A program made the position numbers and the translations under genes. A stretch of 64,000 nucleotides of DNA from NCBI RefSeq assembly GCF_013004645.1, contig NZ_JABEME010000009.1, positions 1-64,000 on the forward strand, in the 5' to 3' direction. The notes beneath the pieces were generated by a model. That model saw only the letters and a list, made by a program, of their open reading frames with translations. It was not told the origin of the DNA and searched no databases. Shown here piece after piece: positions 11,677 to 60,423 of the stretch; position 1 is the first letter of the stretch; each line of letters begins with the position of its first letter. This stretch comes from Stenotrophomonas africana (GTDB taxonomy: Bacteria > Pseudomonadota > Gammaproteobacteria > Xanthomonadales > Xanthomonadaceae).

Positions 11677-11880
11677 ATGTTGATCCTGACTCGCCGCGTC
11701 GGCGAAACCCTGATGATCGGAGACTCGGTGAGCGTCACCGTGCTTGGCGTCAAGGGTAACCAGGTGCGTATCGGCATCACCGCGCCGAAGGACGTCGCTG
11801 TGCATCGCGAAGAGATCTATCAGCGCATCCAGCGTGGTGATGAAGCCGGTGGCACCGGTAGCGAAAATTCTGCCGAATAA
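11677..11880 (+). CDS. csrA: Carbon storage regulator CsrA
   Basis: Small dimeric RNA-binding protein that controls translation by binding GGA motifs in mRNA leaders. The 67-residue product [16 protein letters not shown]... is full length with conserved RRVGE and the IYQRIQ helix; the tail is Gly/Ser rich. A GGAG stands 10 bases before the ATG. It lies between alaS and tRNA-Ser, the common gammaproteobacterial order. Confidence 0.97.
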
Positions 11881-54444: not shown

Positions 54445-54825
54445 ATGCACCTGTCCCTGCTCAAGACCAAGATCCACCGCGCCACCGTCACCCATTCCGA
54501 GCTGAACTACGAAGGCTCGATCGCCATTGATGACAACCTGCTGGCTGCCACCGGCATCCGCGAGTTCGAGCAGGTGCACATCTGGGACGTGACCAACGGT
54601 GCGCGCTTCTCGACCTACGCCATCCGCGCCGAAGCCGGCAGCGGCGTTGTCTCGCTCAACGGTGGCGCCGCGCGCCACGTGCAGGTCGGTGACATCATCA
54701 TCATCGCAGCGTTCGCCAGCATGACCGAGCAGGAAGCTGACAGCTTCAAGCCGAAGCTGGTGTACGTTGATGGCAAGAACCAGATCACCCACACCAACGA
54801 CACGATCCCGACCCAGGCCGCATGA
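54445..54825 (+). CDS. panD: Aspartate 1-decarboxylase
   Basis: Makes beta-alanine for PanC; pyruvoyl enzyme made by self-cleavage. The 126-residue product has the cleavage site Gly24-Ser25 in NYEGSIAID, with [18 protein letters not shown] before it and GARFSTYAI and [19 protein letters not shown] after. Overlaps the pgi ATG by 4 bases. Confidence 0.96.
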
Positions 54826-56336
54826 CAACGAACAACGGATTCGACTCGCTGCACTCCCACGCCCAGCGCCTGAAGGGCGCAAGCATTCCCAGCCTGCTCG
54901 CCGCCGAACCCGGGCGCGTGCAGGATCTGGCGCTGCGGGTCGGTCCGTTGTACGTCAACTTCGCGCGGCAGAAATACGATGCTGCGGCGCTGCAGGCGTT
55001 GCTGGCGCTGGCTGCCGAGCGTGATGTCGGTGGCGCCATCACCCGCCTGTTCCGTGGCGAGCAGGTCAACCTGACCGAAGGTCGCGCGGCGCTGCACACC
55101 GCGCTGCGTGGCGATGTGGTCGATGCGCCGGTGGCGGCTGAGGCCTATGCCACCGCGCGCGAGATCCGCCAGCGCATGGGCGTGCTGGTGCGCGCGCTGG
55201 AAGACAGTGGCGTGACCGATGTGGTCAGTGTCGGCATCGGTGGTTCCGACCTTGGCCCGCGCCTGGTTGCCGACGCGCTGCGCCCAGTCAGCGGTGCGCG
55301 CCTGCGGGTGCATTTCGTCTCGAACGTGGACGGCGCCGCCATGCAGCGTACGCTGGCCACGCTGGATCCGGCGAAGACCGCCGGCATCCTGATCTCCAAG
55401 ACCTTCGGTACGCAGGAAACCCTGCTCAACGGCCAGATCCTGCACGACTGGCTGGGTGGCAGCGAACGCCTGTATGCAGTCAGTGCCAATCCGGAACGCG
55501 CCGCCAAGGCCTTTGCCATCGCCGCCGATCGCGTGCTGCCGATGTGGGACTGGGTGGGTGGCCGTTATTCACTGTGGTCGGCGGTCGGTTTCCCGATCGC
55601 GCTGGCAGTCGGCTTCGATCGCTTCGAGCAGTTGCTGGAAGGCGCGGCGCAGATGGATGCGCATGCGCTGGATGCACCGCTGGAGCGCAACCTGCCGGTG
55701 CTGCACGGCCTGACCGACATCTGGAACCGCAACCTGCTGGGCCATGCCACGCACGCGGTGATGACCTACGACCAGCGCCTGGCGCTGCTGCCGGCCTACC
55801 TGCAGCAGCTGGTGATGGAAAGCCTGGGCAAGCGCGTGCAGCGTGACGGGCAACCTGTCACCACCGACACCGTGCCGGTGTGGTGGGGCGGCGCGGGCAC
55901 CGATGTGCAGCACAGCTTCTTCCAGGCACTGCACCAGGGCACCAGCATCGTTCCGGCAGATTTCATCGGCTGCGTGCACAACGACGATCCCTACACGATC
56001 AATCATCAGGCCCTGCTGGCCAATCTGCTGGCGCAGACTGAAGCACTGGCCAATGGCCAGAGCAGCGACGACCCGCACCGTGATTACCCGGGCGGCCGCC
56101 CGAGCACGCTGATCCTGCTCGACGCGCTGACCCCGCAGGCGCTGGGTGCACTGATCGCCATGTACGAACACGCTGTGTACGTGCAGTCGGTGATCTGGAA
56201 CATCAATGCCTTCGACCAGTTCGGTGTCGAGCTTGGCAAGCAGCTGGCCAGTGGCCTGTTGCCGGCGCTGCAGGGTGAGGATGTTGCGATTGCCGACCCG
56301 ATGACCCGCGAAATCCTGGCGCAGCTGAAGCGCTGA
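54822..56336 (+). CDS. pgi: Glucose-6-phosphate isomerase
   Basis: Interconverts glucose-6-P and fructose-6-P. The 504-residue product has [68 protein letters not shown] (catalytic His region) and [17 protein letters not shown] (catalytic Lys). Coupled to panD by ATGA. It is the last gene before the lanthipeptide locus. Confidence 0.96.
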
Positions 56337-56651
56337 CCCGGCCTGCGGATGTGCCGGCGCCGGCCGGCCATCCCATGTCTCTCCGCTTGCCTTCGATCCG
56401 GTCGCGCATGAATGGTGCGCGGCCACGCATTCCGTGTCGTTTGCGTGCTGCACATGCAGCGCATCCGCGTGCCTGCCGCAGCGCAGCTTGACTGCGCATC
56501 GCCTGCCATTGCAGTGTGCACGGGCGGCTGTACCTGTCATCCAGTATCGCTCGCAGCATGATGTTGATGCCAGGGACTGGCCGTATCCGAAGGGACGTGG
56601 AATCGATCCATGTCCTCAACGCCTCATGTTGTGAATGACAGGAGATTGCGA
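56337..56651 (+). other. Upstream region of the lanthipeptide locus
   Basis: A 315-base gap between pgi and the precursor gene. It has GC-rich dyads just after pgi (GCCGGCGCCGGC near 56352). A TTGACT hexamer at 56488 lacks a good -10 at 17 bases. A short frame at 56434-56634 is not convincing. The precursor promoter presumably lies here, but I cannot place it. Confidence 0.5.
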
Positions 56652-56858
56652 ATGGATCTGAATGACGATGTTGTGTCCGGCTGGCTCAATGGCTCGGACG
56701 ATGTGGATGGGTGCGCCAACCCTGCGGGTTCGCTGTTCATCTATGGCGCTGCGGCTACCGAGTCCGCACTCACGTCGGCCTCCGACACCCTGATCACCGG
56801 TGGTGGCACCGAGTGCACCACCACGATGTCCGTGGTCAATCACTGCCTGTGTTGCTGA
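56652..56858 (+). CDS. Class II lanthipeptide precursor (LanA)
   Basis: The 68-residue peptide has an acidic leader (MDLNDDVVSGWLNGSDDVDG...) ending DTLITGGG at residues 45-52, the Gly-rich cleavage motif of class II leaders. The predicted core is TECTTTMSVVNHCLCC (53-68), with four Cys and five Ser/Thr in 16 residues. AGGAG lies 7 bases before ATG 56652; an in-frame ATG at 56610 has no such site. The gene is about 61% GC by my count, lower than its neighbours appear. It is 82 bases upstream of LanM, its expected modifier. Leader Cys21 is unusual. Identity rests on context plus leader/core pattern, not on a known family member. Confidence 0.8.
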   Translation: MDLNDDVVSGWLNGSDDVDGCANPAGSLFIYGAAATESALTSASDTLITGGGTECTTTMSVVNHCLCC

Positions 56859-56940
56859 TGTAGCCCGAGCCGGCACGCAGCGCCTTGCGGCTGCGTGCCG
56901 GCAACTGGAACAGACTTCCCGATACCTTGCAGGGGGCGTA

Positions 56941-59838
56941 ATGACCGCTTCTCCGGCTGCGGCCGCGTTTGCGCGCATCACCGAACATTTCCTTGCCCAT
57001 GCGCGCGCCGCGTTGGCGGCCGGCCTGCATGACCCTGCCATTGCGCTGCAGCCCGGTGAGCGCGAACTGCTGCACGCGCAGGGCGACGCGGCGCTGCGTG
57101 AGCATGCCCAGCTCAAGCTCAACCGTGTGCTGTTGCTGGAACTACACGCAGCTGCGCGCGGCGGTGACATCGGCCCGCTTGACAGCGCCGGCACGCTGGA
57201 CGAATTCGTAGCCCTCGCCACCAGCGAGGGTTTCCGTGAACATCTGCAGCGACGCTACCCGGTGCTGTTGCCGCGGCTGTCGCGCATGCTTGAAGGACAA
57301 TGCGCGGCCGTGGTGGAGCTGGCCGCGCGCATCGGCAGTGATCGTGCGCTGCTGACGGACCTGCTCGACGCTCCGGCCGGAGTGCTGCGTGCGATCGCGT
57401 TGGGGCGGGGTGACCTGCACGGCGGCGGCCGGACCGTGGCACGGCTGCAGTTCGACGGCGGCGTGCTGATGTACAAACCGCGCTCGCTGCGCATCGATGC
57501 GGCGCTCGATGGCCTGCTCGCTGCGGTCTTCGGCGAGGGCCCGGGCCGGGTGCGTGTGCCGCGTGTGGTAGACCGTGGCAGCCATGGCTGGGCCGCGTTT
57601 GCCGCGCACCGTCATTGCGCCGATGACGAAGAGCTGCGTGCCTACTACCGCGGTCTTGGCCATTGGCTGGCGATCCTGCGCCTGGTCGGTGGTACCGACA
57701 TCCATCTGGAGAACCTCATCGCTGTCGGGCCGGTGCCGGTGGTGATCGATGCAGAAAGTGTGTTCTCGCAGGTGATCGACGTCGAGCCGTCGGGCCTGGG
57801 CGACGCCTACGATACGGCCATCAAACTGATGCGCAATTCCGTGCTGCGCACCGGCATCGTGCCGTTCCGCACCACCGGCCTCGGTATGGAGGGTGTGGAC
57901 CTGTCGGCTGCCGGCGCATTGCCAGGCGAGCAGCCGCGGGTACAGGTGCCGGTGATTGTCGAGGATGGGACGGGGCCGGCCCGGCTTGGCATGGTCGAGG
58001 CCGAAGTCGCCATCGCACAGAACCACCCCAGTCCACAGCCGGATGTTTCGTTGTACTGGGACCACATCAGCGAAGGCTTCATCGACGCCAGCGGGCGCCT
58101 GCGCGCACTCGATGCCAAGGGCGAACTGATGCCACTCCTGGCGGCTTTCGAAGGCTGCCAGGTGCGGGATGTGCGGCGGCCGACAATGGCCTACGCCGAG
58201 CTCGGGCGGATGCTCTGGCATCCAGCCTCGCTGCACAAGGAAGCCCAGGCGGTTGAGCGCGCGATCGATCTGCTGGTGCGCAATGCAGCGGTGTCACCGG
58301 CTGCGCCATCGGATCTGGAAACCGTACGTGGAGAAGTGGACGACCTGCGCCACGGTGACATTCCGATCTTCACTTCGCGGCTGGACGCGACCCGCATCCG
58401 CTCCATCGCCGACAACTGGCGTGCGATGCGCATCGACCTGGAAGACGTGACCATCCGCAGCACGCTGGTGGCCACCGACCTGAACCAGCATGCGCTGGCC
58501 CGCGCCGAGGCTCGCTCCGGCTACAGCTATGCCGCGCAGCAGCCGCGCGCGGACGATCTGGACCTGCGCCGACGAACGCTTGCGGCACGCGCGGTGGAGA
58601 ATCTTCTGCGTCTGGCCGTGCATGGTGAAGATGGTTCGATGACGTGGATCACGCCCGAGGTGACCCGCACAGGATGGACCGTCCAGCCGGTGCAGCCCGA
58701 CCTGTATTTCGGGCTGGGGGGCATTGCGTTCGCACTGGCGGCCTACCGCCGGGAAGTGGAGCAGGGACGTGCCGACCCGGTGGCCGGGCTGGATCCGGCC
58801 ATCGAAGGCGCCATTGCGGTGTTCCAGACCATGTGCGAGCGCCATCCCGCCGGGATCGATGGTGGATTCGTCGGCACAGGCTCGCAGATCTGGACCCTGC
58901 TGGCGTTGCACGATCTTCTGCAGCGCCCCGCACTGCTTGCGCTGGCCGAGCGCTGTGCGGAGGGCGTGGAACGTCGTGGCTTCCAGGGGCCGGTGAAATT
59001 TGAACTGATTGATGGCGTGTCCGGCATGATCCTGCCGTTGTTGGCGCTGGCCGAGGCCACCGGCAGAACGCGCTGGCTGGAGTTGGCGGCTGCGGCCGGG
59101 CGCCGCATGCAGGAAGCGGCGATCGTCGATGCCGACGGCGCACGCTGGCCGACGCCACAGTTCCGCGAGCCGATCGGTGGCTTTGGCCATGGCGCGATGG
59201 GCATGGGCTGGGCGCTGGCACGGCTGGCGCGGTCGGACGCCGGCAGCGTGCCTGAGCGCGCCGCCTGGCGGCAGTTGGCCGAAGGAGCGTTTGCGTTCCA
59301 GGCGGCGTTGTTCGAACCGCATACCGGGCACTGGCGCGACATCCACCTGCAGGATGGGCAGAAGAACTTCCCGACCTGGTGCCATGGCAGTGTTGGCATC
59401 GGTCTGGCGGCGGCGGATCTGTATGCCCGCACTGGCGATCCCACGCAGTTGCGTGACATGCGGCGGGCTGTGGCCGACGCGCGCGGCAAATGGGGGTTCA
59501 GCCACACCCTGTGCCATGGCGACCTGTCCACGCGGGAGCTGCTGGTGCTGGCGGCTGCGCTGGATCCGGAGGGATGCCCCTATCCGCAGGACGAGGCCGC
59601 CATCGAGATCGTTTCTTCGATCGAGGAGCACCAGGGCATGGTCGGCGGACTGACCCGCGCGGCCTTTACCCCGGGCTTGATGATCGGCCTGGCAGGTGCG
59701 ATCTATGGCTTCCTGCGCATGCATCCGGCCTGCGTGCTGCCGTCGCCGCTGCTGCAGGAGACGGCAGCGGCGCGGGTCGATGCCCCGGCATCGCGTTCCA
59801 GTGCCGCGCAGGACCGAGCGGCGCTGGCCGAGGTCTGA
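56941..59838 (+). CDS. Class II lanthipeptide synthetase LanM
   Basis: Bifunctional enzyme that phosphorylates and eliminates Ser/Thr, then cyclises Cys onto the dehydro residues. The 965-residue product has an N-terminal dehydratase (DUF4135) domain: DLHGGGRTVARLQFDGGVLMYKPRSL at about 159-184, GGTDIHLENLIAVG near 250-263, VIDAESVF and DLRHGDIPIFTSRLD. The C-terminal LanC-like cyclase has YFGLGGIAFAL, GFGHGAMGMGWAL (His750), TWCHGSVGIG (Cys814) and TLCHGDLS (Cys858-His859); Cys814, Cys858 and His859 are the zinc ligands. All key sites are intact, so it should be active. AGGGGG precedes ATG 56941. Confidence 0.94.
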   Translation: MTASPAAAAFARITEHFLAHARAALAAGLHDPAIALQPGERELLHAQGDAALREHAQLKLNRVLLLELHAAARGGDIGPLDSAGTLDEFVALATSEGFREHLQRRYPVLLPRLSRMLEGQCAAVVELAARIGSDRALLTDLLDAPAGVLRAIALGRGDLHGGGRTVARLQFDGGVLMYKPRSLRIDAALDGLLAAVFGEGPGRVRVPRVVDRGSHGWAAFAAHRHCADDEELRAYYRGLGHWLAILRLVGGTDIHLENLIAVGPVPVVIDAESVFSQVIDVEPSGLGDAYDTAIKLMRNSVLRTGIVPFRTTGLGMEGVDLSAAGALPGEQPRVQVPVIVEDGTGPARLGMVEAEVAIAQNHPSPQPDVSLYWDHISEGFIDASGRLRALDAKGELMPLLAAFEGCQVRDVRRPTMAYAELGRMLWHPASLHKEAQAVERAIDLLVRNAAVSPAAPSDLETVRGEVDDLRHGDIPIFTSRLDATRIRSIADNWRAMRIDLEDVTIRSTLVATDLNQHALARAEARSGYSYAAQQPRADDLDLRRRTLAARAVENLLRLAVHGEDGSMTWITPEVTRTGWTVQPVQPDLYFGLGGIAFALAAYRREVEQGRADPVAGLDPAIEGAIAVFQTMCERHPAGIDGGFVGTGSQIWTLLALHDLLQRPALLALAERCAEGVERRGFQGPVKFELIDGVSGMILPLLALAEATGRTRWLELAAAAGRRMQEAAIVDADGARWPTPQFREPIGGFGHGAMGMGWALARLARSDAGSVPERAAWRQLAEGAFAFQAALFEPHTGHWRDIHLQDGQKNFPTWCHGSVGIGLAAADLYARTGDPTQLRDMRRAVADARGKWGFSHTLCHGDLSTRELLVLAAALDPEGCPYPQDEAAIEIVSSIEEHQGMVGGLTRAAFTPGLMIGLAGAIYGFLRMHPACVLPSPLLQETAAARVDAPASRSSAAQDRAALAEV

Positions 59839-59859: not shown

Positions 59860-60423
59860 TCAGCGGCTGGGATCGCGTTCCGGGCTTGGCCGCTTGGCCA
59901 GCTTGCGCTGCAGCGAACGCCGGTGCATGCCGAGCAGGCGCGCGGCCGCGGACACGTTACCGCCGGTCTCGTGCATCGCCTGCTGGATGTGTTCCCACTG
60001 CAGGCGGCTGATCGGGGTCATCGCGTCGGGCACTTCCATTTCGCCATCGTCGGCCGGGCCGTCGTCTTCCTCACCGAGGGCGCGCAGGATCATCGGCACC
60101 GTGGCCGGCTTCGGCAGGTAGTCGTCGGCGCCGAGCTTGATCGCCTCCACCGCGGTGGCGATGCTGGCGTAGCCGGTCACCAGCAGGATGCGCATGTCCG
60201 CGCGCAACGCGCGCAGCGGCTGGATCAGGGCGAGGCCGGAATCGCTGCCCAGCTTCAGGTCGATCAGCGCGAACGCCGGCGGATGCTGGCGGGCCAGCGC
60301 CAGTGCACTGGCGGCATCCTGCGCGGTCTGCGTTTCAAGCCCCTTGCGGGCCAGGCTGCGCTGCAGGGTGCGCAGGTACAGTTCGTCGTCGTCGACCAGC
60401 AGGCCGAGGGTTGAGGTGCTCAT
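59860..60423 (-). CDS. Response regulator, RegA/PrrA/RoxR type
   Basis: The 187-residue product has a receiver domain with acidic pocket LLVDDDE, phospho-Asp in LIDLKLGSDSG, TGY and KP switch residues. A short linker leads to a Fis-type helix-turn-helix (GNVSAAARLLGMHRRSLQRKLAK). Overlaps the kinase stop by ATGA. This family controls respiratory and redox genes. It ends 21 bases from the convergent lanM stop. Confidence 0.92.
   Translation of the reverse strand: MSTSTLGLLVDDDELYLRTLQRSLARKGLETQTAQDAASALALARQHPPAFALIDLKLGSDSGLALIQPLRALRADMRILLVTGYASIATAVEAIKLGADDYLPKPATVPMILRALGEEDDGPADDGEMEVPDAMTPISRLQWEHIQQAMHETGGNVSAAARLLGMHRRSLQRKLAKRPSPERDPSR

Follow-up and report, generated by a model that had tools for sequence, protein, structure and literature searches.

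A DUF6229 precursor and a single LanM as a probable class II lanthipeptide cassette in Stenotrophomonas

The peptide gene and its LanM

The window—the whole 64-kb stretch of DNA analysed here, one end of a 188-kb contig in a 4.57-Mb genome—carries on its forward strand a short peptide gene followed closely by a large enzyme gene. The precursor peptide gene (LanA, 68 aa; 56652..56858, stop codon included) begins with an ATG at 56652, preceded by an AGGAG ribosome-binding site read from the sequence (56640..56644) that is invariant in all 16 loci of the genus. Within the peptide are a Thr-Gly-Gly (TGG) stretch, which may be a leader cleavage site or the start of the core (56796..56804), and the conserved core CTTTMSVVNHCLCC, of the pattern CTTTxSxxxxCxCC (56814..56855). 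A gap of 82 bases separates the precursor stop from the ATG of the class II lanthipeptide synthetase LanM (965 aa; 56941..59838). Outside the cassette lie a phosphoglucose isomerase gene on the left (pgi, forward strand, 54822..56336; Pfam PGI, 503 bits) and, on the right, a reverse-strand gene for a response regulator with a Fis-type HTH (59860..60423; Pfam Response_reg and HTH_8).

The sequence-only reading of this DNA had described a class II lanthipeptide locus of one precursor and one LanM in a Stenotrophomonas-like genome, with a ribosome-binding site before the peptide gene and 82 bases between the two genes; this layout stands, and both proteins match family models. The precursor matches Pfam DUF6229 (PF19740; 64.1 bits against a cut-off of 25, and 58.7 bits in the genome search), a family still labelled as of unknown function in the Pfam copy searched; the NCBIfam models gave no match to it. 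LanM scores 499.6 bits against NCBIfam TIGR03897 (cut-off 304) and combines in one protein a DUF4135 dehydratase domain (PF13575, 300 bits) and a LANC_like cyclase domain (PF05147, 117 bits).

Relatives with solved structures are LicM2 (6st5, E 2e-46, 162 bits) and CylM (5dzt, E 4e-30, 108 bits), the LicM2 alignment spanning residues 61-932. Among 46 LanMs compared, that of the window being one, K179, D253, H255, D270, E272, R413, C814, C858, and H859 are present in every protein and N258 in 45, and T415 is kept in 40 but replaced by S in the other 6; their catalytic (kinase/lyase) and Cys-Cys-His zinc-ligand roles we take from the CylM and LanC literature. Thus the LicM2 alignment and the conservation among 46 LanMs confirm the earlier claim that the enzyme is complete, with zinc ligands and dehydratase motifs intact. 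The likeness to LicM2 and CylM lies in long homology and conserved catalytic motifs, at only 162 and 108 bits; their systems differ from this locus in their precursors. LicM2 and CylM systems also have dedicated exporter and immunity genes. The nearest named matches to the window LanM come from Stenotrophomonas sp. RAC2 (100%, rounded, over the whole length), an uncultured Stenotrophomonas (98%), S. geniculata ATCC 19374 (94%), and [Pseudomonas] hibiscicola ATCC 19867 (90%).

Distribution, genomic sites and the upstream element

Of the 91 genus genomes, 16 carry a full-length LanM relative at 65-100% identity (one further genome, G019, whose match is weak, at 27% over residues 670-835 and E 3e-9, is left out of this count), and DUF6229 is present in exactly the same 16 (Fisher p 4e-18, kinship ignored). 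In all 16 loci the DUF6229 frame precedes LanM, the LanM frame is open, and the precursor is intact—conservation of the small frame beside LanM in related strains, whose absence the sequence-only reading had named as one refutation, therefore holds in every LanM-bearing genome among the 91 mined. That the small frame is a chance open reading frame was considered and rejected, given its DUF6229 match and its place ahead of LanM in 16/16 genus loci.

The linkage extends beyond the genus. In overlapping samples, the genomes with DUF6229 number 23 of 297 in the family (5/54 genera), 28 of 299 in the order (12/85 genera), and 3 of 398 in the phylum, all three of the last belonging to Stenotrophomonas. 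LanM adjoins the DUF6229 frame in 46/46 loci (16 from the genus and 30 from the family, the latter being 30 of the 31 non-genus places of the family search, with G569:C17:231823 left out) and in 21/21 further loci of the order search (L148-L168; G976:C8, G817:C1:811126, and G964:C9 left out), or 67/67 loci examined within the order. On plasmids, 184 records carry LanM relatives, all below 60% identity; the top three are actinobacterial (two Embleya, one Nonomuraea; L182, L183, and L184), at 40-44% identity, and in these three records a purpose-built model finds a DUF6229-like frame upstream of LanM (E 6e-17, 8e-15, and 3e-14). The plasmid gene table, itself incomplete, lists no feature at those frames. 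Separately, JAHREJ010000066.1 (L006), titled Bacillus subtilis SK7B5, bears a Stenotrophomonas-type LanM locus and looks mislabelled or contaminated.

In eight genomes the cassette sits between the pgi and response regulator genes. The pgi gene is found in 90/91 genus genomes; among the best 30 of these 90 loci, 22 are LanM-negative, and in 21 of the 22 the two flanking genes lie 34-428 bp apart, the remaining locus stopping at a contig edge. Filled and empty sites share homology that on the left extends no more than about 40 bases beyond the end of pgi and on the right stops at the response regulator stop codon. The empty gaps (L120-L147) often contain short palindromic repeats (GTAGTGCCGGCC...), which we take to resemble the SMAG/REP elements of S. 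maltophilia and which are possibly recombination points for gain or loss of the cassette. In the other eight LanM genomes the cassette lies beside different genes—GTP cyclohydrolase, phytochrome kinase, an EAL/GAF protein, PAS kinase, short-chain dehydrogenase, SH3-like, and GNAT—with one nearest neighbour lacking a Pfam match.

One further feature accompanies the cassette at its several genomic sites: a GCCA-NGGAN-TGGC element (forward strand, 56569..56581 in the window), which begins 74-85 nt ahead of the precursor ATG in 16/16 genus loci and holds this position though much of the upstream DNA has diverged. It is the best-conserved 17-column upstream window, with 14 of 17 columns invariant (the next best separate window has 10), and was found in none of 49 upstream stretches of 260 nt from 46 other DUF6229 loci (L110, L116, L164, L165, and L167 gave no upstream and are outside this count). 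The GGA of the element is fixed but the base on either side of it varies, another GGA lies within the ribosome-binding site, and the element resembles the RsmA/CsrA consensus; a csrA/rsmA gene is present in the window at 11677-11832 (PF02599, 91 bits). The element may be an RsmA/CsrA-type hairpin or, equally possibly, a DNA operator, and because its stem never varies, no covariation backs the RNA reading. We keep the CsrA reading as a hypothesis only, since the pattern has 12 genome copies (against 2 for a reversed control), all of them, the precursor's included, overlap some open frame in this GC-rich DNA, and none of the non-genus upstream stretches searched has the element.

Core patterns and described relatives

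The CTTTxSxxxxCxCC core occurs in 16/16 genus peptides against 0/55 other DUF6229 peptides. Its Cys, Thr, and Ser residues are constant in all 16, with codons that differ at 6 of these 8 invariant positions; because the 16 loci are related, the number of independent lineages behind this conservation is small (about five deep branches of the LanM tree). Among the peptides compared here, the genus carries its own DUF6229 core pattern. A single LanM is preceded by two tandem DUF6229 precursors in L090, L091, and L092.

Enzyme and core follow one another closely. In a tree of 46 LanMs each of five core types corresponds to one clade with 100/100 support, and five changes, the fewest possible, account for the six core labels, of which one is a single row; the labels were assigned by eye from the peptide sequences, and the clustering is inflated by near-copies. 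The tree program issued a long-branch warning for L109, L110, L106, and L101. The Stenotrophomonas LanMs form one fully supported clade spanning the same 65-100% identity and several genomic sites.

DUF6229 peptides are no strangers to the literature. According to PMC9576775 (2022), a DUF6229 peptide of Dyella was modified by its own LanM in E. coli, with four dehydrations and three rings; rhodanocin, the LanII product of Dyella sp. 333MFSha, had its ring pattern determined by NMR, with a backward Cys8-Ser14 ring and a T6-C11 ring in which Thr stands five residues before Cys, and the family is said there to hold at least two ring-pattern groups. The genus locus resembles this system in its DUF6229 precursor with a LanM and its gammaproteobacterial host, and a backward Cys-to-Ser ring is possible in the genus peptide. 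It differs in spacing, however: the published rhodanocin arrangement (T6, C8, C11, T12, S14, T18, and C23) is found in 0/16 genus precursors, which places them outside the rhodanocin subgroup as published, and in 2/55 other DUF6229 peptides. Those of L166 and L168 have the full rhodanocin Thr/Cys/Ser spacing beside a LanM and are close relatives of the characterised product.

In Lysobacter, 21 of 27 unique class II precursors are DUF6229 peptides according to a preprint (PMC11451712), and these too pair DUF6229 precursors with class II synthetases. The family LanMs, from genomes that probably include Lysobacter, are 39-61% identical to the window LanM; the Lysobacter systems differ in having other cores (e.g., STCPxGRCxCC and CSSCSASxGGxCC) and LanMs outside the Stenotrophomonas clade. 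The expectation of a little-explored product was therefore overstated, DUF6229 being the family of the characterised rhodanocin (PMC9576775) and present also in Lysobacter (PMC11451712). Within Stenotrophomonas, genome papers report a predicted class II lanthipeptide cluster in S. rhizophila T3E (PMC12589107) and a predicted lantipeptide cluster, class not given, in S. oleivorans ASS1 (PMC13224943); one of the 16 genus loci may already be flagged as the latter. Class I and class III clusters are given as strain-specific examples in PMC11138164, and PMC4657364 provides lantipeptide counts for Lysobacter. Among the open-access papers listed by our searches, we found no description of a Stenotrophomonas DUF6229 precursor.

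Processing, export and the likely product

We consider it highly probable that the locus as a whole is best explained as a two-gene DUF6229 class II lanthipeptide cassette, with modification, processing, export, and activity as proposed below. Family membership, intact catalytic residues, strict two-gene linkage, the match of LanM clade to core type, and presence or absence at one site support this directly; dehydration, rings, processing, export, and activity we infer. The conserved leader would be bound by LanM, which would phosphorylate and dehydrate Ser and Thr of the CTTTxS block, and the LanC-like domain would then add Cys thiols to give up to four thioether rings. Since the first Cys stands ahead of the four conserved core Ser/Thr, it would form a backward ring with a Dha/Dhb further downstream, as Cys8 does with Ser14 in rhodanocin, react with a Thr that lies upstream (e.g., the one in TGG), or remain free. 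Machinery encoded elsewhere would remove the leader and export the product.

No exporter, protease, or immunity gene was recognised beside the genus loci, and a C39-ABC exporter query matched in none of the 16 within the available flanks; across all 46 loci ABC-type matches appear in the flanks of three (L093, L109, and L110), the flanks searched being short at contig ends (e.g., L084 and L089). A wider search for shared accessory genes, using a codon-usage gene finder and all-against-all BLAST, recovered LanM in 46/46 loci, and the other families were mostly tied to one site or were broad ones (response regulators, AMP-binding/NRPS proteins, and RND-type proteins, named by eye) at varying places. 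Small accessory genes can be missed in such a search, because the finder called the precursor itself in only 17/46 loci. In 5/30 non-genus loci (L096, L098, L102, L105, and L116, spanning two core types) LanM is followed, at a distance of no more than about 1.2 kb, by the gene for a 712-aa-type protein, which was not clustered at any of the 16 genus loci; it is a Peptidase M13 by Pfam in the L116 copy. Its presence counts against a strict two-gene rule, and in those five loci it might be a leader protease.

The sequence-only reading had placed a GGG leader end in the peptide: GGG is indeed there in the window peptide, only TGG being common to all 16, and its role as leader end is a putative one. 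Residues -8/-7 are S/D if the leader is taken to end with TGG and D/T if it is taken to end with GGG, and thus the (E/D)(L/M) motif frequent at these positions in class II leaders (PMC7268733) is absent although Gly-Gly itself is present, which makes Gly-Gly only a weak candidate cleavage site. That it is nonetheless a true double-glycine site, cut by a C39 peptidase (ABC-fused or free-standing) encoded elsewhere, seems to us rather unlikely. TGG is conserved in 16/16, Gly-Gly ahead of the first tail Cys is rarer in other DUF6229 peptides (11/55), a short-frame C39 domain (about 234-351 aa) that could make the cut is present in 15 of the 16 genomes with LanM and likewise in most of the genus, and in genome G000 a C39-ABC exporter is encoded about 61 kb away from LanM. 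That exporter, however, adjoins a small peptide of its own whose double-Gly leader is typical, ...LNELEIAEISGG; strong C39-ABC matches (at least 89 bits, in frames of at least 687 aa) occur in 8/16 LanM genomes against 28/75 without LanM (Fisher p 0.40), so that these exporters show no association with LanM; of the other LanM genomes, G052 and G056 have weak matches only, and G014, G016, G029, G036 (85% complete), G077, and G080 have none. Rhodanocin was left uncut by LahT150 despite a possible double-Gly (PMC9576775). As an observation apart, the G000 exporter lies outside the window (L087 7753-10980; G000:C29, about 120.7-124.0 kb) with a Rce1/CAAX-type membrane protein (Pfam) and the small double-Gly peptide, in what looks like a separate bacteriocin locus.

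Somewhat more likely, though still less likely than not, is that TGG belongs to the core, its Thr being dehydrated and taking the first core Cys, with leader cleavage further upstream. Thr-Gly-Gly and the 3-4 residues that lead to the first Cys are conserved in 16/16, and the T6-C11 ring of rhodanocin spans a distance of five where six or seven would be spanned here (PMC9576775); the Thr ahead of Gly-Gly could, however, equally be leader. We hold it very improbable that the cassette is a decaying relic or that its product is not made: its distribution is patchy (16/91 genomes) and G052 has, about 10 kb away from its intact locus, a short piece of a LanM C-terminus, but all 16 LanM frames are open, all 16 precursors are intact, and the core residues are unchanged despite codon changes. 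The G052 stretch (L086 8510-8632; 40 residues, 76% identity) is possibly the trace of a second copy.

The two-gene cassette reading thus leaves a peptide and a single LanM that very probably make a thioether-ringed product, from a conserved class II lanthipeptide cassette that is real, probably working, and a member of an already described precursor family. A more particular proposal appears unlikely when taken as a whole—a Stenotrophomonas-specific DUF6229 branch of undescribed topology, with a backward first-Cys ring, three consecutive Thr feeding CxCC, Gly-Gly inside the core, a bare two-gene cassette that lacks an exporter or immunity gene of its own, and RsmA/CsrA translational control through a GGA-loop hairpin that travels with the cassette from site to site. 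The product is most likely a narrow-range antibacterial, which we offer as a guess, since rhodanocin was reported to be weakly active (126 uM against K. pneumoniae), as measured on a fragment that is probably not native (PMC9576775).

The DUF6229-LanM loci offer a test set for the matching of LanM clade to core pattern, and they raise the question of how lanthipeptide processing and export proceed in a Gram-negative bacterium when neither an exporter nor an immunity gene is linked to the locus. DUF6229 adjoins LanM in all loci examined, which come from two families of the order and, among Actinomycetota, from three records that represent two genera. Soil and clinical strains of Stenotrophomonas are common, and for this reason the product may matter for competition.
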